Virus record (IMG/VR): IMGVR_UViG_3300023239_000006
Coordinates: 1-64,000 of that record
Length of the DNA: 64,000 nt
Strand: one strand, 5' to 3'
From: a virus
Program-made: the position numbers and the translations under genes
Shown: positions 1-57,645 of the stretch, piece after piece
How positions within the stretch are numbered: position 1 is the stretch's first letter
Layout of the letters: each line of letters opens with the position of its first letter
The notes under the pieces: generated by a model
What the model saw: the letters and a program-made list of their open reading frames with translations, nothing else
The model's database searches: none
Told to the model about the DNA's origin: nothing

Positions 1-99
1 GTGATGATTCTCTTTATAACCCGATATGTCTAAAGGATTATTTTTTCTATTAGATATAATGCTGTTATACCATCTTGTATATTTGTTATTCTTAAACAT
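1..99 (-). CDS. HNH homing endonuclease, 5' part only (runs off the window)
   Basis: A reading frame on the minus strand opens with ATG at 97-99 and stays open for 33 codons to the window edge. The N-terminus (MFKNNKYTRWYNSII, then a spacer, then SGYKENHH at the edge) is typical of phage free-standing HNH endonucleases, where the final HH begins the catalytic HNH motif. The start has no Shine-Dalgarno but lies 5 nt after a late promoter octamer GATAAATA (105-112). The catalytic half is outside the window, so activity cannot be judged. It lies downstream of the recombination operon, separated by about 85 bases. Confidence 0.6.
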   Translation of the reverse strand, partial: MFKNNKYTRWYNSIISNRKNNPLDISGYKENHH

Positions 100-104
100 A
101 CAAG

Positions 105-112
105 TATTTATC
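105..112 (-). promoter_or_regulatory. late promoter octamer, 5 nt before the HNH start
   Basis: GATAAATA on the minus strand, followed by CTTGT and then ATG. If transcription starts about 6 nt after the octamer, as at T4 late promoters, +1 is the A of the ATG. The same 16-nt junction recurs in front of gp13 (18567-18582). Confidence 0.6.
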
Positions 113-184
113 AAACTTTGGATCAAACCTACCGGTAACTAAAATTATTTTGCGCATAAAGTTATTTATGTACGCAGTTAATAC

Positions 185-808
185 CTACCAGCCGAAAATG
201 TAATCTTTTCTAACGCTGGTTAATTCTATTGCACCTAGCGACTTAAGATATTCGCCTGCTTGCTTAAACTTTGCATGTTGTTCAACAATTAAAATAGGTT
301 TATATTTTAATATTGTTTCTGTAGCACCTTTAAGTACTTGGAGTTCGTAGGTTTCACAATCGAGTTTTATCATTCCAAATTTTGGAAGATTTAAATCATC
401 TAATTTTTTAATTAAAATACTACCAGTTCCGAGCGAATCTTTTTTAATATAACTTGCGCCAATGTTTTCATGATCGAAAAACATATCAACAGTATTGTTT
501 TCCTCGCCCAGCGCAAAGTTGTACAAATCAACGTTTAGCCCTTTAACATTTAGTTCTAAACATTCGTAGACTTCGTTAATTGGTTCAAATGCAATTACTT
601 TATTAAACCGTTCAGCTAGATGCTTTGCCCAAAGTCCTACATTGGCTCCTACATCAACAACTAGATCAAAGTCAGTTACATATTTGTATGCTGCATCTCT
701 TACGTCATCTTGATATTGTGCAGGTCCGCCTTTTTTAATACGTTTAGCAATTAACCCTTCAAAATGTTCGTCGCAATCGGGCATCCAATATTCGTAAACT
801 TTTTTCAT
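185..808 (-). CDS. FkbM-family SAM-dependent methyltransferase
   Basis: A 207-residue class I methyltransferase. The SAM-binding glycine motif VVDVGANVG lies near residue 50, followed by VIAFEPI (acidic residue binding the SAM ribose) and the FkbM signature IKLDCETYELQVLKGA in the C-terminal half. FkbM enzymes usually O-methylate sugars or small metabolites. The start is ATG at 808 with AAGG 7 nt upstream. It follows the glycosyltransferase-like gene by 2 nt, so the two probably act on the same glycan (on the virion or the host envelope; inference). It is the last gene of the gp32-uvsX-uvsY transcription unit. Confidence 0.8.
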   Translation of the reverse strand: MKKVYEYWMPDCDEHFEGLIAKRIKKGGPAQYQDDVRDAAYKYVTDFDLVVDVGANVGLWAKHLAERFNKVIAFEPINEVYECLELNVKGLNVDLYNFALGEENNTVDMFFDHENIGASYIKKDSLGTGSILIKKLDDLNLPKFGMIKLDCETYELQVLKGATETILKYKPILIVEQHAKFKQAGEYLKSLGAIELTSVRKDYIFGW

Positions 809-810
809 CT

Positions 811-1443
811 TTATACCTTGTATTTGTTGTATTCTACAAGATATTTATCTATGGTTTTCTGTTCGCCTTTGAGAGTTAAAAATACCCCATTGGTTTTATT
901 TTTTCCACTGTTTATCCATTGTTGTCCTACTGGAGAAAAATTATAATCAGTTGACATTTGCCCAAGAATTTTTTGATCTCTTCCCCACTTCCATTCTTCA
1001 ACAGGAATACTAGTTAACAACTCTGCATACCGTTTTCTAAAATCAGTATTGCCAAAAGATACTAAACATGCTAGCCATCTTGTTGATTTATGGTGCTGCA
1101 TTACGTACTGTTTTGTAAATAATGTTTTAAATTCAGCTTCGGTAAAACTTCTTGTGCATATCGTATCAGTATCTACTACAATTAGGGATTCACTATTTGG
1201 AATCTTTGATGCTGCAAGAAACCTAGCAGCCTGCAAATAAGAAATTTTAGATTCGTCATTTAAAAAAGAGATGTTTTCAGTTGTATATGAAACAAAATCT
1301 AATTCTTTTGCATTTATTGGGTTAACTATATGACATCTTAGTTTAATCCACGGATTGTTATAATGTATAGATTGTAATAATGCAATCCCCCAATCGTCAT
1401 AATAAGATTGGTCGCACCCAATTAAAATACTATAGTGACGCAT
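811..1443 (-). CDS. glycosyltransferase-like protein
   Basis: A 210-residue protein with an N-terminal beta strand (SILIGCDQSYYDDWG), a following LLQSIHYNNP segment as in GT8-type transferases, and a VVDTDTIC strand near residue 90 giving a DxD metal/nucleotide-sugar motif. Length and order fit a small GT-A fold enzyme, but no close family is recognised. The start overlaps the 3' end of uvsY by 14 nt, indicating translational coupling, and the stop lies 2 nt before the FkbM gene. Substrate unknown. A general nucleotide-sugar binding protein is the alternative. Confidence 0.55.
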   Translation of the reverse strand: MRHYSILIGCDQSYYDDWGIALLQSIHYNNPWIKLRCHIVNPINAKELDFVSYTTENISFLNDESKISYLQAARFLAASKIPNSESLIVVDTDTICTRSFTEAEFKTLFTKQYVMQHHKSTRWLACLVSFGNTDFRKRYAELLTSIPVEEWKWGRDQKILGQMSTDYNFSPVGQQWINSGKNKTNGVFLTLKGEQKTIDKYLVEYNKYKV

Positions 1444-1885
1444 CTTCTAATCCTGATACTCGTAATTTAACAATGTTGCTTAGATGCCATTGTTTCTGAT
1501 CAAGTGCTTTAATAATGCCCAACCACTTGTTACGTAATAGGGCAAAATCGTTGATAATTTTTTCAAAGTCTACAACGTCAGCTTCACCTTCTACGAACTT
1601 TTCACAGTCCCTAGAAGATAAAGCTCGTTGATAATTTTCAAGATACTTGCGAAAATATTGACTACGAAGTCTACGAAGTTCAATGTGTAAGTACTCAAGG
1701 ATACCTTCAATCTCTTGAAGTTGATTAAAGCGGTTTTCTACGATGCCGGGCATTTGCGAACTTGCTTTCTCAATGTTTCCCGCTATGCGGACATCTTGTT
1801 TTGCATGAATTAATTCAGCTTCATAATAAGCCACAGCATCGGGAATATTGCTTATATCTTTACTAACCTTGTGGTACCAGTTCAT
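1430..1885 (-). CDS. uvsY: UvsY-like recombination mediator
   Basis: A 151-residue, charged, mostly helical protein. Size (T4 UvsY has 137 residues), position downstream of uvsX, and the C-terminal pattern W-x-II-x-ALDQKQWHLSNIVKLR match T4 UvsY, which loads UvsX onto gp32-coated single-stranded DNA. The middle has an arginine-rich helix (YLHIELRRLRSQYFRKYL) suited to DNA binding. It starts immediately after the stop of the 76-residue gene and overlaps the glycosyltransferase gene. The overall match is by pattern, as no alignment could be run, but the context is strong. Confidence 0.75.
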   Translation of the reverse strand: MNWYHKVSKDISNIPDAVAYYEAELIHAKQDVRIAGNIEKASSQMPGIVENRFNQLQEIEGILEYLHIELRRLRSQYFRKYLENYQRALSSRDCEKFVEGEADVVDFEKIINDFALLRNKWLGIIKALDQKQWHLSNIVKLRVSGLEDASL

Positions 1886-3192: not shown

Positions 3193-3212
3193 ATTAGTCC
3201 CTGTAAATGAAG

Positions 3213-3237
3213 AAGAGTGGGAACCTGTCCCACTCTT
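3213..3237 (-). terminator. hairpin between gp32 and uvsX
   Basis: A 10-bp perfect stem (AAGAGTGGGA / TCCCACTCTT) with a 5-nt loop lies between the gp32 stop and the uvsX start. On the minus strand it is followed by CTTC rather than a long T run, so it is probably a partial terminator or RNA-stabilising element that lets gp32 be made in excess of UvsX. Confidence 0.6.
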
Positions 3238-3246
3238 TTATGTTGC

Positions 3247-4420: not shown

Positions 4421-6160
4421 TTACATACTGTACATGCCTGATAGTGCTTTAATACGAGCTAGCTCTGGATTCTCTGCTGGTTCTGGAGCTTGTTGTTGCG
4501 GCGCCATTCTTTCAGCCATCTTACGAGCTACTGTTTCTGCCTGCTCACCAAACTTCTTACCTACCATAGTGCAAACGCCTTCTGGGCCTTTGGGAAATGT
4601 GCCTGAATCTTTATCATAAAAGCTGTGCATAAACTCAGCTAATTCTTGTACGTTCATCTTGCCACTATGTTCTTCCGGCGATTGTTCTTCCGATTCCTGT
4701 GGGACTTCTTCTGGCGCAGTTTCTTCACCCCCTTGGTCTGTCGCCGGCTCACCGCCCACTGGTTCTGGTTGAAAATCACCAAAATCTAATACCTCTAACA
4801 CTTCTGGAGCATTGGCTTCCAGCCATACTTGTACTAGGCCTCTTACATCTGCTTCCGGATCTTCTTTAGATTGCGTCTTAATTTCTTCTTCTAATCGTGG
4901 ATCATCTATGATGCCTTTAAGACTTTCAATTGCATTAGAACCGTCTACGCCTGCGGGGAATGCCTGGCTAACTAACTCTTGTAATTGTTGTGCTGCTGCT
5001 GCCTGTTCTTCTTCATCTTGGCTTTGTATTGCGCTTTCTTCGCCTAAATTCATAGCCCATTGTTCAAACTTTGCAAATGGGTCATAGCGGTCTGCGTTGA
5101 AATCCTCGTCTTCAGTTTGGATTTCTTCTTGTGTCATGGCGACTATGTCGTCGTAGCCTAGTTCACTTTCTTTCATTAAACGATACAGTACAGGAAATAC
5201 TGCGGCCATATCTTCTTTGAAATTCTTCACTGTAAATTGATCTTTAAATTGTTCTGCAATTTCTTGCGGAACTTCCATAGGTTGCTGTGCCTGGAAACTT
5301 TCTTTGTAAGCCTCATAGTGGCCTTGTTTTGATAGTGCTTTTATTTGCTCACGTAATCCGTTAAGTGCTTGTGTACTACGCTCAACAACACTGTTCGTGT
5401 CGCTGTTCATTAGATCATTGCGTACAACATAATTGCCAAAGCTCTTTAATTGTGCAATCTCTTCACTCATCTTAATGATGCTTTCACCAATGGCATCGTA
5501 CGGTAAGCCACCGTTAGCCACATGGCGTTGCATAGCACGGGCGCCTGCTAAGTGAATGAATGGATATTTAAATCTTTCACCGTCTGCGTTTTCTACAAAC
5601 AGGCCAGCGATATTACGACTTCTGGCACCCGGTGCCATATCGTCATTTAACTTTTGACTGTGTTTAACAATCAATCGTGTATTTTCTAATTTTTGGTAAC
5701 TAACGCTTTTAGTACCGTACATTGTGCTTTCTGCCATAACGCCTTCTCCGACTGGAACTGAATTTTGTGCTTCTTGTTTAGGTTGAGCATTACGAGTTAA
5801 AAATTTGTAATCTCTTTTATCTAGGTTGTCTTTGGCAATATCTCTAGTGTCAAAGTTTAGTAATCTACGCTTGGCAAACATACGTAATTCTTTTAGGAAT
5901 CCGTACCACCTGTCTTTTTGCTCTGCGTCCATTGATTCTGTAATTCCGTGACTGAAGTAAATCTTCATGGAATTATCTTCTGCTAGACTAATGCTAACGT
6001 GACCAATAGGAGTTTCACCTTCCATATAGTCAAAATCAAAGAAACGTGCTTCTTGTGGATTTATAGTAATTTCGCCAATTTCTGTACCTAATTTTAGACC
6101 AGAGAATCTGCTACGAATTTTGTAGAATAAATCTGTTGCGATGTTGTTAGTTGCGTCCAT
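4421..6160 (-). CDS. conserved T4-like phage protein of unknown function, 579 residues
   Basis: Not recognised. The first 110 residues look like a folded alpha/beta domain (KIRSRFSGLKLGTEIG, then FDFDYMEGETPIG). The middle is helical with YPFIHLAGARAMQRHVANGG. The last third is acidic, glutamine-rich and probably disordered, and it ends in a short helical domain (MHSFYDKDSGTFPKGPEGV, then a C-terminal ELARIKALSG). The best start is ATG at 6160, 5 nt after the octamer GATAAATA; a TTG 15 nt further upstream is unlikely. It follows terL and ends with a strong terminator. Late expression suggests a virion or packaging role. Confidence 0.7.
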   Translation of the reverse strand: MDATNNIATDLFYKIRSRFSGLKLGTEIGEITINPQEARFFDFDYMEGETPIGHVSISLAEDNSMKIYFSHGITESMDAEQKDRWYGFLKELRMFAKRRLLNFDTRDIAKDNLDKRDYKFLTRNAQPKQEAQNSVPVGEGVMAESTMYGTKSVSYQKLENTRLIVKHSQKLNDDMAPGARSRNIAGLFVENADGERFKYPFIHLAGARAMQRHVANGGLPYDAIGESIIKMSEEIAQLKSFGNYVVRNDLMNSDTNSVVERSTQALNGLREQIKALSKQGHYEAYKESFQAQQPMEVPQEIAEQFKDQFTVKNFKEDMAAVFPVLYRLMKESELGYDDIVAMTQEEIQTEDEDFNADRYDPFAKFEQWAMNLGEESAIQSQDEEEQAAAAQQLQELVSQAFPAGVDGSNAIESLKGIIDDPRLEEEIKTQSKEDPEADVRGLVQVWLEANAPEVLEVLDFGDFQPEPVGGEPATDQGGEETAPEEVPQESEEQSPEEHSGKMNVQELAEFMHSFYDKDSGTFPKGPEGVCTMVGKKFGEQAETVARKMAERMAPQQQAPEPAENPELARIKALSGMYSM

Positions 6161-6165: not shown

Positions 6166-6173
6166 TATTTATC
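6166..6173 (-). promoter_or_regulatory. late promoter octamer at the gp17 stop
   Basis: GATAAATA, then TAACT, then ATG 6160. The octamer overlaps the terL stop codon (6172-6174). No Shine-Dalgarno is present; predicted +1 is the A of the ATG. Confidence 0.6.
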
Positions 6174-7758
6174 AATATCCTGTGCTTACAAAGATCGGCA
6201 TTGGCATTTGTTCTTCAGAAAGTCGTTCAGACATTTTTTCGTAAATCTTAGGATCCCAATCTGCTAATACATCTGCCATACGTATAATTAGCAATGCAGC
6301 GCTTATTAGATCGTCATTTTCTCCTGATTTAGCATTAAATCCTAGGCCGCTGGCTACGAATGTTTTAAGTTCTGATAATAGAGGTTTTGATTTAATAATT
6401 AGTTTGTTAGTTTCGACTAAGTTCTTAAACTGACTACATGCTGTGACTTTACTGCGATGTGTTGTATTAAATCCCTTACGAAATTTACGCACATGCCCTT
6501 TGCGAATAGGTTCGCTTAGGAATAGTCCTGGAAAGTTTTCTTCACCGATGTCACTGATAACAATAAGTGCTGCTTCACCTAGACTGTTGTTTTCTACTGA
6601 GTAATACATCTGGGGCGCACCGCCTTTTTCTATGCCACGATCTTGGATATATCGCAGTATCTCTCTCATGTGCTTTATCTGCTGTTGTATAGGAGTTAAA
6701 TTATGACGCCACTCTGCAACCTGTATCATACTAGGCATTTCAAATACTTGAATAGCTGCATAGTTGCCGCCTGTTCCCAGACTGGGATCTAACGACAATA
6801 AGTAAGTTGCCTTAGGATCAATGTCTTTGTAGAATCTAGTTTGCCCCATAGTCATTACAGGATCAACTCCAGACAGCTCTGCAAGTTTTACAGTATTAAT
6901 CAAGGTTTCGTCAAAGATCAAGAATTCGCAATCAAACTCGCGCCGGAAACGTTCAGGACCAATTTTAGCACGTTCTACTGCCGCCCACTTCTCATCTCGA
7001 TCTGGATGTTCATTCCAGTGTGCAAAGAAGCTGTGGAATCCGTTTGTGCCAAGTTCTTGTTCGTTGCCATACTCGTCAAACTTCTTATTAGCTTCTGTCC
7101 AGATTAAAGCAAATTGATCTTCGTCGCTGTTTGGTGTCGATGTAATGATACACTTACCACCTGTTGACAATGTAGGGCTTAGTGCCGTCCAGAACTCTTT
7201 AGCTTTCTCTGGCGGCTGCACGAATGCGAATTCATCACAGTAAATTAATGATAGTGACTTACCACGACCAGTGTTTTCTGTTGTAGTAGTTGCTTGAATA
7301 CGTGCGCCGTTGTCGTATTCAATTGTGTTTCTGTTGTAGCTGTATACACCTGCACGAATAAAGTCAGGCAAGTTCTCATAACCGAATCGGTAACGATTCA
7401 TAATATCCTGCGCACCTTCGTACTTATGAGCAGCAATTAATACTTGTGCTTCTGGCACAAACATTGTGTACCATAGTAAATATCCCGTAGCGCAAGTAGT
7501 CTTACCCATCTGACGAGGCAGCATACCAATAGACTGTTTGTAGTTGTGGTATGACTGTATTAGCCTCTCTTGGTATTCATACGGTTCAAACTTAATCGAT
7601 CCACGTACAGGATGTTGAATCTTTAAAAAGTTTTTACAGAAGTATAACGGACCGTCTACCGGATGCATACATGCTTCAAGATGCTTAACTTCCTCTAACG
7701 TGTATCGGATCGGAGCATGTGCTTTCTTAATTAAATTACCGTCTAGTGATTTTGCCAT
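6172..7758 (-). CDS. 17: terminase large subunit gp17 (packaging ATPase/nuclease)
   Basis: 528 residues; pumps DNA into the prohead and cuts the concatemer. Walker A PRQMGKT lies at residues 81-87, Walker B plus catalytic Glu LIYCDEFAFV at 171-180, and the coupling motif ITSTPN near 205. The RNase H-like nuclease domain starts with LLSLDPSLGTGG near 320 (Asp 324), with later acidic residues in YYSVENN and ENDDLISA. Length is close to T4 gp17 (610). ATG 7758 sits 5 nt after the octamer AGTAAATA with no Shine-Dalgarno. The small subunit gp16 is four genes upstream. Confidence 0.95.
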   Translation of the reverse strand: MAKSLDGNLIKKAHAPIRYTLEEVKHLEACMHPVDGPLYFCKNFLKIQHPVRGSIKFEPYEYQERLIQSYHNYKQSIGMLPRQMGKTTCATGYLLWYTMFVPEAQVLIAAHKYEGAQDIMNRYRFGYENLPDFIRAGVYSYNRNTIEYDNGARIQATTTTENTGRGKSLSLIYCDEFAFVQPPEKAKEFWTALSPTLSTGGKCIITSTPNSDEDQFALIWTEANKKFDEYGNEQELGTNGFHSFFAHWNEHPDRDEKWAAVERAKIGPERFRREFDCEFLIFDETLINTVKLAELSGVDPVMTMGQTRFYKDIDPKATYLLSLDPSLGTGGNYAAIQVFEMPSMIQVAEWRHNLTPIQQQIKHMREILRYIQDRGIEKGGAPQMYYSVENNSLGEAALIVISDIGEENFPGLFLSEPIRKGHVRKFRKGFNTTHRSKVTACSQFKNLVETNKLIIKSKPLLSELKTFVASGLGFNAKSGENDDLISAALLIIRMADVLADWDPKIYEKMSERLSEEQMPMPIFVSTGY

Positions 7759-7763: not shown

Positions 7764-7771
7764 TATTTACT
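7764..7771 (-). promoter_or_regulatory. late promoter octamer of gp17
   Basis: AGTAAATA followed by ACAAT and ATG 7758. It lies immediately downstream of the terminator of the preceding gene, so gp17 late mRNA should begin here. Confidence 0.55.
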
Positions 7772-7772: not shown

Positions 7773-7800
7773 AAAAAAATAGGCTCCGAAGAGCCTATTT
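7773..7800 (-). terminator. rho-independent terminator with UUCG loop
   Basis: Minus strand: 10-bp stem AAATAGGCTC / GAGCCTATTT closed by a C(TTCG)G tetraloop, followed by a run of seven T. It lies after the stop at 7816 and just before the gp17 promoter. Confidence 0.85.
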
Positions 7801-8256: not shown

Positions 8257-9062
8257 TATTTTGCTCCCTTAGCTTCTGCTAATCTTTGTAATAGTTCTGC
8301 ACGGATACTAGCACGTAGGTCGGCGCCTTCTCTAACACGGTTCATTGGGTTGTCGCCGCCAGCCACTTTAGGATGTGTTCCTTTAGGCTTATTCATGCCA
8401 CCGGCTAATTGGTTGTTCATATAGTCAACACTTTTAACTTCAGGATCTGGCTCGTTTGCATATGATTCGTCTTTTTCTTTATCACGCATCTTCTTTTCTA
8501 GCTTGTGATCGTCCATGTCGTGATCACCATCGCCATCTTGGTCGCCCATTGCTTTCTGCATAGCGTCCATTGGACTGTCATCTTTCTCCATATCGTGATC
8601 GTCCATGTCGTGATCACCATCACCATCTTGGTCACCCATTGCTTTCTGCATAGCGTCCATTGGACTGTCATCTTTCTCCATATCGTGATCGTCCATGTCG
8701 TGATCACCATCACCATCTTGGTCACCCATTGCTTTATCAAAGTCTGGTAACATCTTCAACGGACCTTTATCTAGATTACCTAAACTTAAAGGTGCAATGC
8801 TAGGTCCAGGAGGAGTTAAACTAGGCATTGGTTGATTGATCATATCCGGATTTACTTTAGTCATTAACTTTAGTAAACTTTCAATGCTGTCCATACCTTG
8901 TGCATTAAGATTAACACTCATTGATGGTGGAGTTACTGCAGGAGTAGATGACATTGGGGGCATCATTCCACTCATCATAGAATCACCGCAGGCTTCTACT
9001 GCTACGTTACTGACCGGGCGATCTAAGTCACGCATTGTTTGCATTAATTTATTAAAATCCAT
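8256..9062 (-). CDS. Asp-rich protein with three EF-hand-like 30-residue repeats
   Basis: 268 residues. The N-terminal 90 are Met/Pro-rich and probably disordered. Residues of about 108-190 hold three nearly identical 30-residue repeats, each with DQDGDGDHDMDD, which places Asp at loop positions 1, 3, 5, 9 and 12 and Gly at 6, as in EF-hand/calcium loops, followed by HDMEKDDSPMDAMQKA. The DNA repeats at period 90 bp (8504-8733), nearly base-identical, so the expansion is recent. The C-terminus is basic. ATG 9062 has AAAGGA upstream and abuts the preceding gene. Calcium binding is inferred; a simple polyacidic linker is the alternative. Confidence 0.65.
   Translation of the reverse strand: MDFNKLMQTMRDLDRPVSNVAVEACGDSMMSGMMPPMSSTPAVTPPSMSVNLNAQGMDSIESLLKLMTKVNPDMINQPMPSLTPPGPSIAPLSLGNLDKGPLKMLPDFDKAMGDQDGDGDHDMDDHDMEKDDSPMDAMQKAMGDQDGDGDHDMDDHDMEKDDSPMDAMQKAMGDQDGDGDHDMDDHKLEKKMRDKEKDESYANEPDPEVKSVDYMNNQLAGGMNKPKGTHPKVAGGDNPMNRVREGADLRASIRAELLQRLAEAKGAK
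8504..8733 (-). repeat. 90-bp tandem repeat encoding the EF-hand-like loops
   Basis: Two and a half copies of a 90-bp unit (starting near 8504, 8594 and 8684) differ at only a few positions. Everything is in frame with the coding sequence. Confidence 0.9.
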
Positions 9063-9649
9063 TATACTTTTCCTTTAAGTGGATCTGGATTACTAATCTT
9101 GCTCATAGGAGCCATAGATCCAGCTTTGTCTTGTTTTGCCTTAGGTAATTTGTATTCCCCAACACCGTCTTCTTTCTTACGGGCTTTAGCCGTTTTCTCT
9201 AAATCTTTTAAGAAACTCTTGTTAAAATCATCCCCAAAATAATCTTTGTGTTTAATTTTTTCATTTTTGTACTCTGCTTCATCTAGTACTGCTTCACCGC
9301 TAGGGTCTAGGTCAAATGTAGCATGTTCTGCTTCAGCTGGGTCGCCGCCGTTACGCACTCTGAAATTAGATTCAGGCACTAAGTGGCCAACGTGTACAGC
9401 AAGTTCGGGTGCAGTAATTGGATATTCACAAACCACTTCGAATGTGTACACTTCCATGTTTGCAAGTTCTGGGAAATCCAACGGAATCGCTTGAGCAGAT
9501 GTTTTAGACTTTTCAATGATTGTTGGATTAGCTGCCCCGAGCATTTCCTTTAATTTTTTTTCAAAATCCTTAGGCAATTCGCCTGCGACTTTTACTCTAA
9601 AAGGGTATGCTTTTTTGCTTTCAGCAAGATATTCTTTAAAAGTTTTCAT
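9062..9649 (-). CDS. internal-head-protein-like gene with a T4-type capsid targeting N-terminus
   Basis: 195 residues. The N-terminus MKTFKEYLAESKK closely matches the capsid targeting sequence of T4 internal proteins (MKTYQEFIAE in IPIII) and ends in LAE, the (L/I)xE pattern cut by prohead protease gp21. A mixed alpha/beta region follows (PFRVKVAGELPKDFEKKLKE; FEVVCEYPITAPELAVHVG), then a basic tail. Inference: the protein is packaged in the prohead, trimmed after residue 10, and perhaps injected with the DNA. ATG 9649 lies 5 nt after octamer ACTAAATA. It lies between gp16 and the repeat protein. Confidence 0.6.
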   Translation of the reverse strand: MKTFKEYLAESKKAYPFRVKVAGELPKDFEKKLKEMLGAANPTIIEKSKTSAQAIPLDFPELANMEVYTFEVVCEYPITAPELAVHVGHLVPESNFRVRNGGDPAEAEHATFDLDPSGEAVLDEAEYKNEKIKHKDYFGDDFNKSFLKDLEKTAKARKKEDGVGEYKLPKAKQDKAGSMAPMSKISNPDPLKGKV

Positions 9650-9654: not shown

Positions 9655-9662
9655 TATTTAGT
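9655..9662 (-). promoter_or_regulatory. late promoter octamer embedding the gp16 stop
   Basis: ACTAAATA followed by CTGAT and ATG 9649. The TAA inside the octamer is the stop codon of gp16 (9658-9660). Confidence 0.55.
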
Positions 9663-10134
9663 CCTTTTGACCCAAACTCTTGAGCAATGCATTACGGTCT
9701 GTGATTATATAACCTGAACCTTTTAGCACATCGTTAGGGTCTTCTGGTGAATCTTTATCCATTTTTAGTTTCTTTAACTGTAGATCAATAGCTTTGAGCT
9801 TTTTATCTACTTTGTTAGTCTTTGCGGTGATAGCATGTCCTAGCATACTGCTAGCAACTTCAAATATTCTGCTAGAATATCGTACTTCTACGTTCATACC
9901 TAGATCCATTAGTTCGTCATAGGCTTTTTCTGCTTTTGCTGCTAGATCGTCAAGTTCGTCGTCGCCTAAGTCGTCCAACTCTGTAATCTGCGGTAATGTT
10001 CGAGTGATCTCTGCTACTGCGTTGTAACTATCAGTTATGCTTTTAACTTGAGAATGGGTAGGAGGTTCAATAACTGGCTTAGCTTCTGGCTCTGCTGAGT
10101 CTAGGTTGAACAATTCTTCTAACTTTTTGGTCAT
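9658..10134 (-). CDS. 16: terminase small subunit gp16
   Basis: 158 residues, similar in size to T4 gp16 (164). The disordered, acidic N-terminus contains MTKKLEELFNLD. A central helical coiled-coil hairpin follows (YDELMDLGMNVEVRYSSRIFEVASSML, then KLKAIDLQLKKLKMDKD), as expected for the ring-forming oligomerisation core. It recognises concatemeric DNA and stimulates gp17. ATG 10134 sits 5 nt after octamer GATAAGTA with no Shine-Dalgarno. Confidence 0.8.
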   Translation of the reverse strand: MTKKLEELFNLDSAEPEAKPVIEPPTHSQVKSITDSYNAVAEITRTLPQITELDDLGDDELDDLAAKAEKAYDELMDLGMNVEVRYSSRIFEVASSMLGHAITAKTNKVDKKLKAIDLQLKKLKMDKDSPEDPNDVLKGSGYIITDRNALLKSLGQKD

Positions 10135-10139: not shown

Positions 10140-10147
10140 TACTTATC
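10140..10147 (-). promoter_or_regulatory. late-promoter-like octamer (G variant) before gp16
   Basis: GATAAGTA, then ATTAT, then ATG 10134. It overlaps the TAA stop of gp4 (10143-10145). The sixth base is G instead of the usual A. Confidence 0.45.
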
Positions 10148-10952: not shown

Positions 10953-12029
10953 TTACGGTGCTAGGTTCTTTGGTGAAGCAGTAGTTGTTTCTGTGTTGCT
11001 GGAGCTTTTAGGAAATATTGTTCCTACAAGGCCGCCTACGGTGCTTACTGCGGTTGCAATATTTGCTGGGTTGCTTAAAACATTTATTGCTTCTCTCTTA
11101 AGACTATCTTTTGAAAGTTCTTTAAAATTCTTGTAGGTGTTGACCGTTTTAATAGCACTCCCTAAGAATCCCCCAAAACTGTCAAAAGTATTACCATTAG
11201 CTAAATCGCCAAATATACTTTCTAATCCATCAAGGACTCCGCCGTCACCTGTTAAGTTGCTTACGCCGCCGCCTGCTACACTTAATGGACTTGGTACAGT
11301 ATCATAGTGCAGTGTGGCAAATCCTTTTGGACTATCATATCCTACATTACCCGCACTATACTTTACCGCTTCATATTCTAAAGTCATTTGACTTTCTAGT
11401 ACTTCACTACCTGCTGCATAATCTAATGATCCGTGATTCCAGTTAGTAATTTTTGGATTAATTAACGTGTATCCGGTAAAGCGTCTGCGCGCCATAGTGT
11501 ATATGCTAATGCTTTTAAAGAAAGGAACAGAAATATTATTATCCATACCGTATCTAAAATTATCTAGTGGTGTCTTTGTAGGCCTGAATTTATTTTCGTT
11601 ATACGCAGAAGTTGGCAAGTGTCTATCAGCAACATAGTATCCGTAGTATATTGCCCATAATGCATTAGTTACACCTGCTGCATCATCGTGCATGGTAATT
11701 GATATAGGTTCGTAGTTGATGTTTTTGTAAACAATCTTTTTTCTATTATATTGATTTTTTGTAAGAGTATCAAATTTAAATTTAGGAAGTTCTGTAGTTT
11801 TAACCAGCATACCAACTTCTTGAGAATGTTTAGCTGTAAATGCTGCTGCTGCGTGGGCAGTTGGATCAATCTCAAATCGCACATAGTAATTAAACTTTGT
11901 ACGAGGAGCTAATCTCATAGTATCGTCTATGAATAGACGCGTGGCATGCTGCCAGTTAGAAACTATTCCCTTAGGAGTAGTTAACCCTGTGCCTACGCCA
12001 TTTAGAAAACGAGTAAAGTAGTTTGCCAT
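10953..12029 (-). CDS. tail-tube-like protein (gp54-like tube initiator or gp19 paralog)
   Basis: 358 residues. Residues from about 40 to 235 resemble a tail-tube fold: FNYYVRFEI, VKTTELPKFKFDTLTKN, YKNINYEPISITMHDDAAG and a closing QMTLEYEAVKYSAG. A Gly/Ala-rich C-terminal extension of about 120 residues follows. This fits a gp19-related initiator such as gp54, which starts tube polymerisation on the baseplate; T4 gp54 has 320 residues. It lies directly downstream of gp19. ATG 12029 is 5 nt after octamer CATAAATA. Confidence 0.65.
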   Translation of the reverse strand: MANYFTRFLNGVGTGLTTPKGIVSNWQHATRLFIDDTMRLAPRTKFNYYVRFEIDPTAHAAAAFTAKHSQEVGMLVKTTELPKFKFDTLTKNQYNRKKIVYKNINYEPISITMHDDAAGVTNALWAIYYGYYVADRHLPTSAYNENKFRPTKTPLDNFRYGMDNNISVPFFKSISIYTMARRRFTGYTLINPKITNWNHGSLDYAAGSEVLESQMTLEYEAVKYSAGNVGYDSPKGFATLHYDTVPSPLSVAGGGVSNLTGDGGVLDGLESIFGDLANGNTFDSFGGFLGSAIKTVNTYKNFKELSKDSLKREAINVLSNPANIATAVSTVGGLVGTIFPKSSSNTETTTASPKNLAP

Positions 12030-12034: not shown

Positions 12035-12042
12035 TATTTATG
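12035..12042 (-). promoter_or_regulatory. late promoter octamer of the tube-like gene
   Basis: CATAAATA followed by TTATT and ATG 12029, no Shine-Dalgarno. It lies just after the gp19 terminator. Confidence 0.6.
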
Positions 12043-12045: not shown

Positions 12046-12078
12046 TAAAAAAAGCCCGGAATGCGTCCGAGCTTTTTC
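12046..12078 (-). terminator. terminator after gp19
   Basis: Minus strand stem AAAAAGCTCGGA / TCCGGGCTTTTT (one mismatch) followed by T residues, 15 nt beyond the gp19 stop at 12093. Confidence 0.75.
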
Positions 12079-16207: not shown

Positions 16208-16215
16208 GCTAAGTA
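16208..16215 (+). promoter_or_regulatory. late-promoter-like octamer 5 nt before the HNH-like gene
   Basis: GCTAAGTA followed by TTTTT and ATG 16221 on the plus strand; no Shine-Dalgarno. It diverges from the gp18 promoter. Confidence 0.4.
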
Positions 16216-16220: not shown

Positions 16221-16556
16221 ATGAGACCACTTTGCAAGTGCGGATACCGCCCTAAAGCAGTAAATTACAAGAAAAATGACAGAGTATACTACCGAAGTCT
16301 CTGTGAAATCTGCATGTCCAACGGAATTGGTCATGGAATACCCCGCTGGGTTAGAGCAGGGTATCAGATAAAGTTACAATGCGATAAGTGCGGGTTTCGA
16401 TCACCGCATAAAGAAGTGTTTAGAGTATTTCACGTAGACGGTAATTTAAACAACTGCCGTCCTAACAATCTAAAAACTGTTTGCTGTAACTGTGCTCAAG
16501 TACTAGGCAAAGAAGGAATTGCCTGGAAGCAGGGTGACCTCATCGCTGACTATTGA
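16221..16556 (+). CDS. zinc-finger / HNH-like protein
   Basis: 111 residues with paired cysteines (CKCG, CEIC, CDKC, CCNC) forming two probable zinc sites, and an HNH-like core FHVDGNLNNCRPNNLKTVCCNC. The last His of the HNH motif is not in its usual place (CAQV follows the final CxxC), so cleavage activity is doubtful. Its 3' end overlaps the convergent dNMP kinase gene by 54 nt. Encoded opposite to its neighbours between gp18 and dNMP kinase, it may be a mobile element or a domesticated DNA-binding protein. Confidence 0.7.
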   Translation: MRPLCKCGYRPKAVNYKKNDRVYYRSLCEICMSNGIGHGIPRWVRAGYQIKLQCDKCGFRSPHKEVFRVFHVDGNLNNCRPNNLKTVCCNCAQVLGKEGIAWKQGDLIADY

Positions 16557-17475: not shown

Positions 17476-17814
17476 CTATCTATAAGGTTTTGGTTGTTTT
17501 GGTTTGTTAGTGTTCAATCTATTAGCTAATACACTTGCAGTATTGATAGATTTAGTTCTTTGAGTTCTTCTAGCTGCTTGAGGAGCAGTACGTGCTCTAG
17601 TAGTTTTCATCTTCTGGGCCTGTGCCATATCCATAGGCTGGTGGCATTTTGATGGATGACTAACTTGTCGGCTCTTCCTTGGTCCTGATGAACAACGGAA
17701 TTTTAATTTAGTTGTGCCGCCACGAGCAGTGTGCTTGCCAACACCCCAAACCATTTTAGCAGTTTCAGTATATAACTCTTCGTCATCTTCAAAAATAAAT
17801 TCATTAGCTTTCAT
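17476..17814 (-). CDS. conserved basic phage protein next to gp13
   Basis: 112 residues from ATG 17814, which overlaps the gp13 stop (TAATG); an in-frame ATG 21 nt upstream lies inside gp13 and is less likely. The N-terminus MKANEFIFEDDEE is acidic. The rest is basic: WGVGKHTARGGTTKLKFRCSS, SHPSKCHQPMD, then an Arg/Thr/Lys-rich tail. The middle recurs in aquatic T4-like phages but its function is unknown. IFE at the end of the N-terminal helix resembles a prohead protease site, so an internal head protein is possible (weak inference). Confidence 0.65.
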   Translation of the reverse strand: MKANEFIFEDDEELYTETAKMVWGVGKHTARGGTTKLKFRCSSGPRKSRQVSHPSKCHQPMDMAQAQKMKTTRARTAPQAARRTQRTKSINTASVLANRLNTNKPKQPKPYR

Positions 17815-18569
17815 TATCCGATCACCCATCCCCAACCTTGTGTAGTAATACCAGTCTTAAGGTCTTCACTTAGTCTATCCATATCAGATTGTCCTTCAGC
17901 TTTCATTGCTGCCCCGTTAAGCGCTGTGCCGCCCTGCGGACCTGCAATGCTGGCAAACTTTTCACGGGCTTGACCAAGCATCATTTTGCAATTAGCAAGG
18001 GTGTAATCTTTAATCCATTGTCCTGCATACGTATCTTCGATAATTGCGTGATCAGGTTTGACGTTATAAACCAACAACATAACTGACTCTTGAGTGCGAG
18101 GACGTTGATGAATTGTTAGTTTACGGTTTTGTGGATTCCAATTAAAGTTAATAAAAGATCCAAACATCTTACCAACCATTTCTTGATAGCCTGCAAACAG
18201 TTCGTATGTTGCTAGCCCACCCATGTTTGTTGATGATAACAAATAGGTATTTGTGTAGGCTAAGTTAAACGGTTCAAATACGGTACCGCCGCTTCCTCCG
18301 CCTGTGCGCGAACCAATAGTTCTACGATAAATCTGTCGGACAACCTGTATTTCTTTTGGCAAAATATACTCGTTTTGATCTTCTTCAAGATTCAAAAAGA
18401 TGTAACTTTCTTCAACAGCATTATCTGCACGTTGTCGAAATACTGCTAAACTGCGTGTTAGCGCAGTTTCGTAATGGATAGGATCTAGCTCTATATCAAT
18501 CATGCCGTCACCCAGCATGGCTTTACAGTAGTCGTAAACGCTTTGTTTGGTAATATCTATTTGGCTCAT
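17814..18569 (-). CDS. 13: gp13 neck protein
   Basis: 251 residues (T4 gp13 has 309). With gp14 it closes the portal vertex after packaging and attaches the tail. Diagnostic pieces are YDYCKAMLGDGMIDIEL, a NWNPQNRKLTIHQRPR strand pair, LLVYNVKPDHAIIED, WIKDYTLANCKMMLGQAREKF and the terminal Trp-rich WGWVIG. ATG 18569 lies 5 nt after GATAAATA with no Shine-Dalgarno. It is divergent from gp14 with only 30 nt between the two start codons. Confidence 0.85.
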   Translation of the reverse strand: MSQIDITKQSVYDYCKAMLGDGMIDIELDPIHYETALTRSLAVFRQRADNAVEESYIFLNLEEDQNEYILPKEIQVVRQIYRRTIGSRTGGGSGGTVFEPFNLAYTNTYLLSSTNMGGLATYELFAGYQEMVGKMFGSFINFNWNPQNRKLTIHQRPRTQESVMLLVYNVKPDHAIIEDTYAGQWIKDYTLANCKMMLGQAREKFASIAGPQGGTALNGAAMKAEGQSDMDRLSEDLKTGITTQGWGWVIG

Positions 18570-18574: not shown

Positions 18575-18582
18575 TATTTATC
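18575..18582 (-). promoter_or_regulatory. late promoter octamer of gp13
   Basis: GATAAATA, CTTGT, ATG 18569. It occupies the 30-nt gp13/gp14 intergenic space together with the gp14 octamer. Confidence 0.65.
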
Positions 18583-18587: not shown

Positions 18588-18595
18588 GGTAAATA
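18588..18595 (+). promoter_or_regulatory. late promoter octamer of gp14
   Basis: GGTAAATA followed by TAGT and ATG 18600 on the plus strand (4-nt spacer), back to back with the gp13 promoter. Confidence 0.5.
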
Positions 18596-18599: not shown

Positions 18600-19865
18600 A
18601 TGCCAAGATTAAGCCTCTACCGCGCCCAAAAGGGCAATGATTTTAAATTCATCGATAAAACCGTTTGGGAAATGTTCCAAGTCGGCGGAGTCGATGTACT
18701 TGTTCACAAGTATATAGGACCTGGTTCTAGCAGTGAAGTTACTCCGACAACTCCTGCATATACCACAGACAATCCTTTACAAATACAAGATTTACTATTC
18801 TTAGAAAATAGAGATCGTAAGTATGATCCGGATATATATAGGCTGCGAGGTGTTTATAATATTCAAGACATTGACTTTAACCTAAGTCAGTTTGGTCTAT
18901 TTCTACAAAATGACACAGTATTCATGACGTTTCATATTAACGATACTGTCGAAAAACTTGGACGTAAAATTATGTCGGGCGATGTAATTGAGCTACCGCA
19001 CTTAAAAGACGAGTATGCACTTAACGATTTGCAGTTTGCTCTAAAACGTTTTTACGTTGTTGAGGAAGTCAATCGTGCAGCGGAAGGATATTCAGTAACT
19101 TGGTATCCGCACCTATATCGTGCTAAATGTAAACCACTAGTAGACAGTCAAGAATTTAAAGACATTCTCAACGGTCTCGCTGACGGAGATGGTAACGATA
19201 CTACCACTACCTTACGTGACATTATGTCTACGTATGAAAAAGAAATGCAGATTACCCAAGCAGTTCTTAACCAAGCAGAAGCAGATGCTCCTAAGAGCGG
19301 ATACGATACTACTAAATTCTGGACTGTTCAACTGGATGAAAACGGAAATGCTGATCTAGTAACTGTTGACAATGAAACTATTGATGCTAGCTTGCAAACG
19401 CAGGCCACTGATGCTAATGGCAACTTGTTGTTTGATGCCAACAACGACCCAATATATGTTGGGCCAACAGCTAGCACAATGTTACAAACTGCCAAGGGCA
19501 ATGGCTACCAAGGTTACCTAACAGGAGATGGCATTCCTTCAAACGGCGCGCCGTTTACTGCTGGCATTGCATTTCCACTGTCAGGCGTAGACGGACAGTA
19601 TTGCCTAAGAAAAGATTACATGCCTAACAGACTGTTTAGGTTCAACGGAACAAGATGGGTTAAGATGGAAGATATACAGCGTATGACTATGAACAATCTA
19701 GGTGCTAGCGATACCGGAGTTGGCGATACATTTGAAGGTAAAGATGTTCGTCAAACACAGAAAGGTACATTTATTAACAATACAAATACAGCAGTCATCG
19801 ACGGGCATACTGTTGAAGAGAAACAAAGCCTTAGCAAGGCGCTTAGACCACAGGCGGATGTATAA
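18600..19865 (+). CDS. 14: gp14 neck protein
   Basis: 421 residues from ATG 18600, longer than T4 gp14 (256). The N-terminus MPRLSLYRAQKGNDFKFID, then FGLFLQNDTVFMTFHINDTV, GRKIMSGDVIELPHLKDEYAL and WYPHLYRAKCKP define the family, as does the tail EEKQSLSKALRPQADV. A C-terminal insert carries a Trp/Asn module (NRLFRFNGTRWVKMED) like those in the sheath and gp15. The stop TAA overlaps the ATG of the inserted GIY-YIG gene. It is on the plus strand, opposite to gp13. Confidence 0.85.
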   Translation: MPRLSLYRAQKGNDFKFIDKTVWEMFQVGGVDVLVHKYIGPGSSSEVTPTTPAYTTDNPLQIQDLLFLENRDRKYDPDIYRLRGVYNIQDIDFNLSQFGLFLQNDTVFMTFHINDTVEKLGRKIMSGDVIELPHLKDEYALNDLQFALKRFYVVEEVNRAAEGYSVTWYPHLYRAKCKPLVDSQEFKDILNGLADGDGNDTTTTLRDIMSTYEKEMQITQAVLNQAEADAPKSGYDTTKFWTVQLDENGNADLVTVDNETIDASLQTQATDANGNLLFDANNDPIYVGPTASTMLQTAKGNGYQGYLTGDGIPSNGAPFTAGIAFPLSGVDGQYCLRKDYMPNRLFRFNGTRWVKMEDIQRMTMNNLGASDTGVGDTFEGKDVRQTQKGTFINNTNTAVIDGHTVEEKQSLSKALRPQADV

Positions 19866-24248: not shown

Positions 24249-24256
24249 GATAAGTA
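24249..24256 (+). promoter_or_regulatory. late-promoter-like octamer of the Nudix-like gene
   Basis: GATAAGTA, then TTGGT, then ATG 24262; no Shine-Dalgarno. G variant of the octamer. Confidence 0.45.
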
Positions 24257-24261: not shown

Positions 24262-24639
24262 ATGCAACAGCGTGCCGGATTACTATTCTTAGCAAAAACA
24301 ACAGGTAGGGTACTTCTTATATTAGAAGAATCTAAATGGACAGTTCCTACCTTCCCTCGTAGCCGATCGCTCCTAGAAGATGCTGATGTATTATTAGACA
24401 GGTATTCTAAAGGACGTATTTTGCCTATTGAATTGTACCTATCAGAAGACCGGGGATTTGAATATGGTACGTATGTTTGTCTCGTTGATGAAGAATTTTT
24501 AACAACTGCTGCCTCAACTATTGCTTGGAGTAACCTAGAATATTTGCCTAAGCAATTACATACTGGATTAAAAATTACATTAAATAATTCAGTTATAAGA
24601 ACTAAAATTGAAACTATATTGGAGTTAGAAAAATGTTAG
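24262..24639 (+). CDS. Nudix-fold protein lacking the catalytic box
   Basis: 125 residues. The start RAGLLFLAKTTGRVLLILEESKW is characteristic of phage Nudix proteins. The region that should carry GX5EX7REUXEEXGU is instead PTFPRSRSLLEDADVLLDRY, so the catalytic Glu cluster is absent and hydrolase activity is unlikely. Similar degenerate Nudix proteins occur among T4-like structural genes. It overlaps the next plus-strand gene by 7 nt and is flanked by minus-strand fibre genes. Confidence 0.65.
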   Translation: MQQRAGLLFLAKTTGRVLLILEESKWTVPTFPRSRSLLEDADVLLDRYSKGRILPIELYLSEDRGFEYGTYVCLVDEEFLTTAASTIAWSNLEYLPKQLHTGLKITLNNSVIRTKIETILELEKC

Positions 24640-30391: not shown

Positions 30392-30419
30392 AGTATTGTG
30401 CCGTTTCCAGCATAATACT
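30392..30419 (-). terminator. weak hairpin after the tail-assembly chaperone gene
   Basis: A 10-bp imperfect stem (AGTATTGTGC / GCATAATACT) without a T run on the minus strand. It may be a processing or attenuation hairpin. Confidence 0.3.
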
Positions 30420-30427
30420 ATTTAAGA

Positions 30428-52597: not shown

Positions 52598-52605
52598 TAT
52601 TTATC
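52598..52605 (-). promoter_or_regulatory. late promoter octamer embedding the stop of the 89-residue gene
   Basis: GATAAATA on the minus strand, whose TAA is the stop codon at 52601-52603. It starts a leader of about 65 nt. Confidence 0.6.
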
Positions 52606-52870
52606 CACGACTAAGCATTGCCATTAGCTCAATTTTTTCAACTGTGCTTAGTATTTGATTAATAGTGTCTATTTCTTTTTGTGCTTTTTCTAAATAGGCT
52701 CGACTTTTAGTTTGTCTATGCTGTACCATAATAATACTATGTTGCTTTATGCGATTTTCAATCATATGTTCTATCTGATTAACATCGTGAGTAAACATAG
52801 GAAAGCGTTTACGCCATATACTAAACTGCTCACGCATCTGTTTAAAGTCGTTGTCTGATTCTATTTGCAT
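52601..52870 (-). CDS. small helical protein after gp23
   Basis: 89 residues, helical and charged (DDFKQMREQFSIWRKRF, NQIEHMIENRIKQHSIIMVQHRQTKSRAYLEKAQ). Not recognised; a similar short gene follows gp23 in related phages. ATG 52870 is 4 nt after octamer CTTAAATA with no Shine-Dalgarno, just beyond the gp23 terminator, so it has its own late transcript. Confidence 0.65.
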   Translation of the reverse strand: MQIESDNDFKQMREQFSIWRKRFPMFTHDVNQIEHMIENRIKQHSIIMVQHRQTKSRAYLEKAQKEIDTINQILSTVEKIELMAMLSRG

Positions 52871-52874: not shown

Positions 52875-52882
52875 TATTTAAG
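52875..52882 (-). promoter_or_regulatory. late promoter octamer of the 89-residue gene
   Basis: CTTAAATA, then CCTA, then ATG 52870 (4-nt spacer), immediately after the gp23 terminator. Confidence 0.45.
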
Positions 52883-52887
52883 TCAAC

Positions 52888-52911
52888 AAAAAAGCCCCGA
52901 AGGGCCTTTTT
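52888..52911 (-). terminator. terminator after the capsid gene, UUCG loop
   Basis: Minus strand AAAAAGGCCC-TTCG-GGGCTTTTTT: a GC stem with a C(TTCG)G loop and a T run, 25 nt after the gp23 stop. Confidence 0.85.
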
Positions 52912-54106: not shown

Positions 54107-54117
54107 TATAGTTCTCC

Positions 54118-55212: not shown

Positions 55213-55225
55213 GTGATTCTCCTTT

Positions 55226-55861
55226 TTATTTGAGATCCTTGATGATTTTCACCAAGCTCTCTGCTATATATCTTTGTGCCTGTGGGTTGCCTTGTACTTC
55301 TAATGCCATTTTAAATGCCTGATAGCCACCTGTGTTATTCATCAAGTGCTCATATACTGGAGTTGGGTAAGCTCCGGGTGCGCTTGGCTGCGCAACAATG
55401 TCAACAGTGATAATTTCAAATCCCTGGACATTGCCGCCACCGTCTACTTCGCCGGATCCTCTTGAACTTACACCCAACTTAACTCCTGCCGTCAACATGG
55501 ATTCAATTAATTTACCCATTGGTGTTGGCAAGATTTTTAGTTTTCCGTAGCCGTTAGGACCATCCATCCACATCTTGGTAATCATATGACTAACACGATC
55601 TAGATTAATTTTTAAATCCTGAGGATGATCAACTTCACCTAGCACAGAGTAACCACCAGAGATCTGTTCGTTGAGCGTTTTGACAGCCCTGCCAATCTCT
55701 TGAGAAGAATAAACACGTTGATTTGCATTGCGGATATCACCTTGGATGCAAATCCCGTTGAGATGTAACGACTTACCGCCGTTACCATCTTCTTCGCTCT
55801 CAAGAACAATCTTAGCCTGATCGTAACTTAAATGTTCTGCTAGAGTAAATTTTTTCACCAT
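55226..55861 (-). CDS. 21: gp21 prohead maturation protease
   Basis: 211 residues, a serine protease of the herpes-assemblin-like fold. Catalytic His is in LGEVDHP (His 79) and the Ser in KLGVSSRGSG (about 132-133), followed by EIITVDIVAQPSAPGA. It cleaves gp22, gp23 and internal proteins at (L/I)xE. Length matches T4 gp21 (212). The start lies 9 nt after the core-protein stop. Confidence 0.95.
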   Translation of the reverse strand: MVKKFTLAEHLSYDQAKIVLESEEDGNGGKSLHLNGICIQGDIRNANQRVYSSQEIGRAVKTLNEQISGGYSVLGEVDHPQDLKINLDRVSHMITKMWMDGPNGYGKLKILPTPMGKLIESMLTAGVKLGVSSRGSGEVDGGGNVQGFEIITVDIVAQPSAPGAYPTPVYEHLMNNTGGYQAFKMALEVQGNPQAQRYIAESLVKIIKDLK

Positions 55862-55870
55862 TCGGTCCTA

Positions 55871-56707
55871 TTATCTACGACCACGGAAAAGACTTTGGCC
55901 ATCAGTGGAACCTTCCGCTGCGCCCTTTTTCTCAGCACCATGACCTGACTCTTTCTTGGAGAAAGCACTACCTGCTTTTCCGCCTGGGACATTGATGTTA
56001 CCTGTATTTTGTTCTTTTGGATTACCTTTTAACAGACCGTTGCCTTTTAATGCACCTGTCTCTGAACCTTCGCTACCGTTACGGCCGCTTAGGATGTTAG
56101 CAGTTGTACCACCCATATCATTCTTACCAGCTACTGGGGACTTGCCGCCGTCAGCTTTTTCGGATTGACCTTTCTTTTCTGCGCCGTGACCTGCTGGAAC
56201 TTTCTCAACATATTCACGCACTGTTTCTAGATCAAAGTCATCTTTCATTTCCATTTCGTCGCCCATGTCGTCGCTGTCGTCAGCCATGTCGCCACCTTTC
56301 AATGCATCAAACTTAGCTTGTAGTTCATCTACAATACTGTCTAGATCTTGGAATAATTCTTCTTCGGACTTTTCTTCGTCATCTTCTTCTGGACCCATGT
56401 CCATATCTAAATCACTTTCTAGATCGTCAGTTGCGTCGCCGCCCATTTCGTGATCGCCTTCATATGCGATATCTTCGAAGTTTTCATCCATCTTGTCTTC
56501 TTCAGCATCTTCATCTTCAGCTGCTTCGTCCATTTCTTCTTCGTCTTCGTCTTCTTCTTCTTCTTCAGAAATTTCGGAATCGATTAGATTTTCGTAAATT
56601 TCACGTGAAGCAGCAACTACGTATTCGTGGAATAGTTCTTCTGCTTTAGCTTGGTCTTCGTTAACTAGATGCGCTAGCATCTGTTCTAAAATATTTTTGT
56701 CTGCCAT
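55871..56707 (-). CDS. acidic prohead core protein (gp67/gp68-like position)
   Basis: 278 residues. A helical N-terminus (ILEQMLAHLVNEDQAKAEELFHEYVV) is followed by an extremely acidic stretch of about 80 residues, a helix (LFQDLDSIVDELQAKFDAL), and a basic Gly/Lys/Ser tail in which GHGAEKKG occurs twice. It lies directly upstream of gp21, where T4 has gp67/gp68, and the composition fits a scaffold core component. AAGGAGAAC precedes ATG 56707 and octamer ATTAAATA is at 56742. Confidence 0.7.
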   Translation of the reverse strand: MADKNILEQMLAHLVNEDQAKAEELFHEYVVAASREIYENLIDSEISEEEEEDEDEEEMDEAAEDEDAEEDKMDENFEDIAYEGDHEMGGDATDDLESDLDMDMGPEEDDEEKSEEELFQDLDSIVDELQAKFDALKGGDMADDSDDMGDEMEMKDDFDLETVREYVEKVPAGHGAEKKGQSEKADGGKSPVAGKNDMGGTTANILSGRNGSEGSETGALKGNGLLKGNPKEQNTGNINVPGGKAGSAFSKKESGHGAEKKGAAEGSTDGQSLFRGRR

Positions 56708-56741
56708 GTTATGTTCTCCTTCAAGATTGTTAGGCTGTAGT

Positions 56742-56749
56742 ATATTTAA
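56742..56749 (-). promoter_or_regulatory. late promoter octamer of the head maturation genes
   Basis: ATTAAATA on the minus strand, 34 nt before ATG 56707; likely start of the core-gp21-gp22-gp23 transcript. Confidence 0.5.
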
Positions 56750-56770
56750 TGCGTAGATTTAAAACCGGCG

Positions 56771-57421
56771 TTAAATGATAGTTTTTTGATTCGTTTGATC
56801 TGAATATGCAGTTTCTGGAAATTTTTGTTCAAATTGACTAAAACTTATATGGCTAAGATTACCTAGCTGATTTCCAAGTTTATCTGGAATAAAAGCAGTT
56901 GTCGGTATAACTCTATAAAATTTAATACCTTTAAACTCTTTAATAACTTTTTCCGTCTGACTTAACCAGTTTCCATGAAAAGTTGCTGCGTCTGTTGATT
57001 TTTTGTAGTTAAATGTATCTGCATACACATTGTTAAACTTTCCAGCAATACCTTGATAGTCAAACCCTAAAATGTAAACTTCTTTATGGCCTTGACTTGC
57101 AGCATGCCATAGTGCTGTTGGACCACTTGACCAACCTTTATGAGGTGTAAAGAAATTTATACCTGCTTTAGAGCTAATACCTTTATTAGGATTAGTCCAT
57201 ACCTGGTGTGTCTTATGATAGCCAGACTCAATAATCTCATTAACCATTTTAACATCTACTGCAATTAAAACGTGTGGTTCATATTCTCTATACTGGGCAT
57301 TACATCCGTAAACAATACCTTTAGGTAGCAGAGATTTAGGATCAACAGATAGTCTGCTGGTTCCATTTCCTAGTACAAATGCTGGAGTATTATTCGGCTG
57401 CTGCTTCAACTGGGATACCAT
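56771..57421 (-). CDS. DUF115/MptE-like Rossmann protein
   Basis: 216 residues. PAFVLGNGTSRLSVD near residue 15 is a nucleotide-binding loop, then GIVYGCNAQYREYEPHVLIAVD, SSGPTALWHAASQGHKEVYILGFDYQG, as in DUF115/MptE-like and some glycosyltransferase-like proteins. The C-terminus (FHGNWLSQTEKVIKEFKGIKFYRV) completes an alpha/beta fold. Its start overlaps the 80-residue gene by 32 nt. An enzyme-like gene within a pure head-assembly cluster is unexpected; possible glycan or nucleotide chemistry on the capsid is speculative. Confidence 0.55.
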   Translation of the reverse strand: MVSQLKQQPNNTPAFVLGNGTSRLSVDPKSLLPKGIVYGCNAQYREYEPHVLIAVDVKMVNEIIESGYHKTHQVWTNPNKGISSKAGINFFTPHKGWSSGPTALWHAASQGHKEVYILGFDYQGIAGKFNNVYADTFNYKKSTDAATFHGNWLSQTEKVIKEFKGIKFYRVIPTTAFIPDKLGNQLGNLSHISFSQFEQKFPETAYSDQTNQKTII

Positions 57422-57632
57422 ACATCTGTTGGATAAACCCTTGCTCTGAATTTTCTTCTGCTTGGTGCGCTTCAGATTGTAACCTAAGCTGATTTATCTG
57501 TCTTAGTGTTAAGCGAATCTTGCGAGTGTCGCTTTTTTTCACAACTGAACTGTCTTTACTGTTATCGTATCTACGATCGTTAGCAAAGTCGTTATTTTCG
57601 TTGTTGAAATAAAAAAATTCTAATAGGAGCAT
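57390..57632 (-). CDS. conserved small protein downstream of gp20
   Basis: 80 residues. The basic KKSDTRKIRLTLRQINQLRLQSEAHQAEENSEQGF core recurs next to gp20 in aquatic T4-like phages and may be a gp67-like core component; the N-terminal 20 residues look unrelated. ATG 57632 lies 5 nt after octamer ACTAAATA and lacks a Shine-Dalgarno. Confidence 0.65.
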   Translation of the reverse strand: MLLLEFFYFNNENNDFANDRRYDNSKDSSVVKKSDTRKIRLTLRQINQLRLQSEAHQAEENSEQGFIQQMYGIPVEAAAE

Positions 57633-57637
57633 ACTTG

Positions 57638-57645
57638 TATTTAGT
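57638..57645 (-). promoter_or_regulatory. late promoter octamer before the 80-residue gene
   Basis: ACTAAATA, CAAGT, ATG 57632; it lies 1 nt from the gp20 stop. Confidence 0.6.

Follow-up and report, generated by a model that had tools for sequence, protein, structure and literature searches.

The window analysed here is a stretch of 64,000 nucleotides (positions 1 to 64,000 of IMG/VR record IMGVR_UViG_3300023239_000006), and the source record is a virus contig of 126,576 bases from an uncultured T4-related phage. The initial annotation had reported twelve late-promoter-like octamers in it, with a spacing to the ATG of 5 nt in ten and of 4 nt in two. This claim held for all twelve, which are given below with the genes that follow them and the adjoining terminators.

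105-112, minus strand: octamer GATAAATA, 5 nt before the ATG at 99-97; the frame is cut by the record end and is not shown to be a gene
6166-6173, minus strand: octamer GATAAATA, 5 nt before 4421-6160 (virion structural protein); overlaps the gp17 stop; 4-5 nt in 66/66 orthologs
7764-7771, minus strand: octamer AGTAAATA, 5 nt before 6172-7758 (gp17, large subunit of the terminase); spacing of 4-5 nt in 72/79 orthologs
7773-7797, minus strand: intrinsic terminator (hairpin and T-run), one base upstream of the gp17 octamer; 41/42 distinct orthologs, with covariation
9655-9662, minus strand: octamer ACTAAATA, 5 nt before 9062-9649 (virion structural protein); 64/64 orthologs
10140-10147, minus strand: octamer GATAAGTA, 5 nt before 9658-10134; 4 or 5 nt in 64/64 orthologs
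12035-12042, minus strand: octamer CATAAATA, 5 nt before 10953-12029 (tail tube-like protein); 54/55 orthologs
12047-12072, minus strand: terminator-like hairpin and T-run, just upstream of the 12035 octamer; 33/33 distinct orthologs
16208-16215, plus strand: octamer GCTAAGTA, 5 nt before 16221-16556; 41/41 orthologs
18575-18582, minus strand: octamer GATAAATA, 5 nt before 17814-18569 (head-tail adaptor); 20/20 orthologs
18588-18595, plus strand: octamer GGTAAATA, 4 nt before 18600-19865 (virion structural protein); faces away from the neighbouring 18575 octamer; 7 nt in 8/8 orthologs
24249-24256, plus strand: octamer GATAAGTA, 5 nt before 24262-24639
52875-52882, minus strand: octamer CTTAAATA, 4 nt before 52601-52870
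52888-52907, minus strand: terminator-like hairpin and T-run, just upstream of the 52875 octamer; read from the window sequence only
57638-57645, minus strand: octamer ACTAAATA, 5 nt before 57390-57632

The octamers in the window read NNTAAATA or NNTAAGTA and not strictly TATAAATA; their core, TAAATA or TAAGTA, has on average RA on its 5' side. Two further octamers were found outside the window, at record positions 91795-91802 on the plus strand (5 nt) and 64751-64758 on the minus strand (4 nt). Among the 121 called genes of the record, 10 have TAARTA 5 nt from the start codon and 3 have it at 4 nt; every other distance occurred three times or fewer. Genes having this arrangement are termed fused. 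They encode the terminase large subunit (TerL), several virion proteins, a tail tube-like protein, a head-tail adaptor (matched by 17814-18569) and proteins of unknown function; the major capsid, sheath, tube and gp32 genes are led by a Shine-Dalgarno (SD) sequence. Of the 13 fused genes in the record, four diverge from their neighbour, and about half lie 14 nt or less from an upstream co-directional gene. Several octamers had also been said to contain the upstream stop codon, which was borne out: the TAA of the octamer, or a TGA overlapping its start, is the stop of the upstream gene, the gene gaps then being 8 and 11 nt. Of the gene names assigned earlier, only gp17 was confirmed; gp16, gp13 and gp26 remain without confirmation. 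Further octamer-5 nt-ATG matches occur on the minus strand of the window at 155-168 and 30411-30424, where the frames, read by eye, are very short; these may be leaderless mini-ORFs or chance occurrences. The fused gene at record 64312-64746 (minus strand; in a relative, L173:7514-7948) matches a PHROG named NAD synthetase along with several homing endonuclease families, and that name is probably misleading.

The comparison of octamer-to-ATG spacing with shuffled sequence, proposed as a check in the initial annotation, was run and strongly passed. Rotation of each upstream region of the 126.6-kb record gave an expectation of 1.19 cases at 4-5 nt against 13 observed (P ~5e-10), and letter shuffling gave 0.51. 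Out of 14 other permutations of the TAAATA letters, 13 yielded 0-1 cases at this spacing; AAATAT, which overlaps the octamer, yielded 2. The exact-hexamer scan by position revealed TAAATA at 5 nt as the strongest signal outside SD-like sites. When the record was pooled with three relatives, the spacings of 4, 5 and 6 nt occurred 31, 51 and 10 times, compared to 0, 2 and 0, respectively, for seven cultured T4-related phages (two sampled in part). The pattern could be attributed to chance, or to an artefact of start calling in AT-rich DNA, given so short a motif, rich in A and T and containing a TAA that may double as a stop codon. However, the rotation and shuffle nulls lie about tenfold or more below the observed count, the same gene caller gave 0-2 such starts in five cultured phages, the spacing is kept by orthologs, and the GenBank starts of phage HTVC008M also show 5 nt; this explanation is all but excluded. 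Wrong start codons were rejected too, because the first 20 codons held no SD-preceded in-frame ATG or GTG in 6/7 families (2 cases in the seventh) and codons 2-20 vary with third-position bias.

Orthologs were analysed in 80 IMG/VR loci encoding the same terminase. The spacing of 4-5 nt was kept in nearly all orthologs of seven families (66/66, 72/79, 64/64, 64/64, 54/55, 41/41 and 20/20). The spacing is looser for 18600-19865, where the octamer stands at 7 nt in all eight orthologs. The orthologs of neighbouring genes showed no octamer at the 4-5 nt position: gp32, tail tube, tail sheath and some others carry an SD in every ortholog, and a few (10143, 10583) mostly carry neither octamer nor SD. 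The five gp17 orthologs without the octamer have one common upstream sequence, with an SD-like site instead. For a wider terminase set, SD was present in 0/79 distinct fused upstream regions vs 13/30 non-fused ones (P 5e-9). On the terminase tree the fused state was distributed widely within a large uncultured group, and the subgroup containing the cultured phage PA5oct lacked it; the direction of change is tentative, as the tree was quick and has long branches. The motif, its spacing and its conservation are direct observations, and the fusion of octamer and ATG is real, conserved and specific. A search for the host, by matching the terminase in bacterial genomes, gave no match.

The arrangement is not a general property of T4-related phages. 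T4, KVP40, Syn9, CBB and PA5oct have 0-2 such starts and no peak, and no clear excess over the reversed control was seen in XaC1, Vibrio 2.275.O, PHA46, RM378, P-SSM2, RaK2, Aeh1, Paride, Phosso and Atu_ph07. Restriction to one clade was also rejected, as HTVC008M and G008 (the 328-kb IMG/VR contig of L236) peak as well. In G008, 40 matches to TAARTANNNNYATG were counted vs 4 for the reversed control, and its terminase start is not fused. The pelagiphage HTVC008M (KC465899) resembles the present phage in that TAARTA stands 5 nt before 11 of its starts, the -1 base is mostly a pyrimidine and SD is flagged in only 2/14 fused genes; it differs in belonging to another lineage (Kyanoviridae) and in its TerL start, which is not fused. 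Its fused starts include 18916-, 18943+, 19456+ and 75559+; two of its fused starts are divergent and separated by 26 nt, and at one place a terminator, octamer and ATG form a unit. The DNA end protector, head completion, tail completion and baseplate wedge proteins are encoded by fused genes in this phage, and its capsid, sheath and tube genes have SD. No description of HTVC008M as leaderless was found in the literature searched.

T4 is the textbook of phage late transcription. The octamer of its late promoters lies at -13 to -6 relative to +1, and the first T is weakly conserved in most T4 relatives (PMC1524935). The octamers of the present phage are close to the T4 late consensus TATAAATA and meet the criterion of a T4-type promoter, an octamer resembling TATAAATA. 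Both systems share the TAAATA core, the weak first base, a gp55-family gene and the lack of any other fixed promoter element seen. The gp55-family late sigma gene is situated at record 67877-68647 on the minus strand (PHROG 12791, E 3.9e-77; also PHROG 234) and was present in every relative tested; its presence is shown, and the reading of the octamer by gp55 is inferred. Pfam gave no match in this group for the gp45 clamp (PF02916) or the gp33 co-activator (PF16805), which leaves the complete T4 apparatus unproven here; incompleteness of the record and divergence of the proteins are both possible. Unlike the present phage, T4 has no called start 4-5 nt after the motif; its motifs near genes are mostly 12-40 nt upstream, with strong SD pairing in 27/30 such genes. 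The late promoters of phiKZ are alike in having a short motif near the transcription start, but they consist of a TATG motif with +1 at G (PMC4666361), are used by a phage polymerase and have no TAAATA octamer. A phiKZ-type TATG promoter was rejected here, since +1 would differ and the octamers stand at a fixed distance; most fused ATGs, but not all, follow a T. A phage-coded bS21 (Pfam PF01165) occurs in some relatives (G001:33352-33510, G002:292290-292445) and at 170985-171143 in PA5oct. It was rejected as the cause, as no match was obtained in the record holding the window or in G003, and PA5oct has it without a peak.

Placing the T4 octamer (-13 to -6) at the 5-nt spacing puts +1, by analogy with T4, on the A of ATG. 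The usual bacterial initiator has a pyrimidine at -1 and a purine at +1. The base before ATG was T or C in 49/51 five-nt cases compared to 549/1203 (46%) other genes (P 2.5e-14), and A at -1 was avoided in both spacing classes (3/82 fused vs 505/1203 others). The 4-nt class was not enriched in pyrimidine and had G at -1 in 13/31 cases, so a one-base leader is possible there; transcription at these sites could start either at the A of ATG or one base upstream. SD was found in 2/82 fused genes vs 502/1203 other genes (P 1e-15), by which the leaderless criterion of SD absence before the start is met. The initiator-like base and the lack of SD are thus measured properties of the class. The start codon was ATG in 81/82 fused genes, which is weak evidence for leaderlessness because most other genes use ATG too. 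The earlier claim that fused starts lack SD largely held, one of the 13 fused genes in the record being flagged, and its counterpart that other genes have SD held for gp32, tail sheath and major capsid. For 9062-9649 an AGGA is present 5' of the octamer and therefore lies outside the predicted transcript.

The room available for a leader was limited at several loci. In 41/42 distinct gp17 orthologs and 33/33 tail tube-like ones, the octamer is closely preceded by a hairpin and T-run, with at most a few bases between them; compensatory changes are seen in the gp17 hairpin. As these conserved terminators, which are directly observed, abut the octamer, no room for a leader is left at either gene, and RNA from upstream is expected to end mostly before their ATG. 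The divergent start codons at 18569 and 18600 are 30 nt apart with octamers back to back, leaving no room for two leaders.

The above observations favour an explanation in which each octamer would act as a gp55-type (T4-like) late promoter, with +1 at the A of the start codon or no more than a few bases from it. In the fused class the late mRNAs would then begin with AUG or carry a leader too short for SD, and their translation would proceed by leaderless initiation. The likely reading of the class pairs T4-type late promoters with leaderless or near-leaderless initiation; it remains a prediction, as no transcript 5' end has been mapped. Four supports are available for it, namely the T4 geometry, the pyrimidine at -1, the near absence of SD and, for two genes, the abutting terminators. 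Against it stand the transfer of the T4 spacing by analogy, the absence of Pfam matches for gp45 and gp33, and the 4-nt class with no pyrimidine enrichment at -1. The exact +1 and the mode of translation are inferred, and the earlier inference that +1 falls on the A of ATG, giving leaderless or near-leaderless late mRNAs, is well supported and not demonstrated.

One rival explanation relies on longer polycistronic transcripts, in which coupling or reinitiation at the stop of the preceding gene would allow translation of the fused genes, the octamer being a minor extra promoter. Many fused genes do follow a co-directional gene by 3-14 nt, and the octamer may hold the stop of that gene. However, four fused genes of the record diverge from their neighbour, terminators separate gp17 and the tail tube-like gene from the preceding genes, and the fixed octamer spacing and the -1 base are left unexplained, rendering this explanation unlikely. 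Read-through translation is not excluded for the half or so of fused genes lying 14 nt or less from a co-directional gene.

The octamer motif is also present 13-40 nt upstream of other genes, usually with an SD in the leader between, and its flanks are the same in the fused and the distant class. Since the motif occupies both positions, it is proposed that one promoter type feeds two initiation modes. TAAATA near ATG could alternatively be a translation signal, such as a ribosome standby site or an A/T-rich enhancer, and not a promoter; it does lie at about SD distance, in place of SD. This is very improbable, as the same element and flanks stand 13-40 nt upstream of other genes with SD in between, TAAATA directly follows terminators, and the element matches the T4 late consensus in a phage having a gp55 gene.

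The predicted mRNAs resemble the leaderless mRNAs of bacteria and of phage lambda cI (PMC9031893) in the 5'-terminal AUG, the lack of SD and the almost invariable use of ATG. They would differ in forming a whole late gene class under a phage-specific promoter, which is predicted without 5' mapping. A full-text literature search for leaderless late transcripts in T4-related or jumbo phages found no report of the class; most subscription papers were outside the search and priority is not established. Provided that the prediction is correct, many late proteins of a large uncultured T4-related lineage, and of one or more cultured ocean phages, would be translated from leaderless messages. This would offer a natural system in which one promoter type leads to two translation-initiation modes in the same infected cell, and would bear on how ribosomes handle leaderless messages in vivo. 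Detection of late promoters is reported to fail in pelagimyophages (PMC7029224), and the fused-octamer pattern may aid promoter annotation in such phages.

A bolder reading, which is only a possibility, is that these phages deliberately use leaderless initiation as a second class of expression. Leaderless late mRNAs might supply several low-copy virion parts (TerL, neck-type), and SD leaders the abundant capsid, sheath and tube; the HTVC008M end protector, head and tail completion and baseplate wedge proteins could conceivably represent the same low-copy class. Promoter placement alone may set stoichiometry, or may answer a late change of the ribosome. The split between low and high copy is inferred from known T4 biology without a statistical test, and the relative G001 has many fused genes of unknown or non-virion function.

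A different arrangement was seen upstream of the terminase of L254, where the octamer, 5 nt and an ATG are followed by GAG, with the terminase ATG 13 nt later. This could give a 5'-terminal AUG together with an SD-like leader, as for some E. coli mRNAs (PMC4965119).
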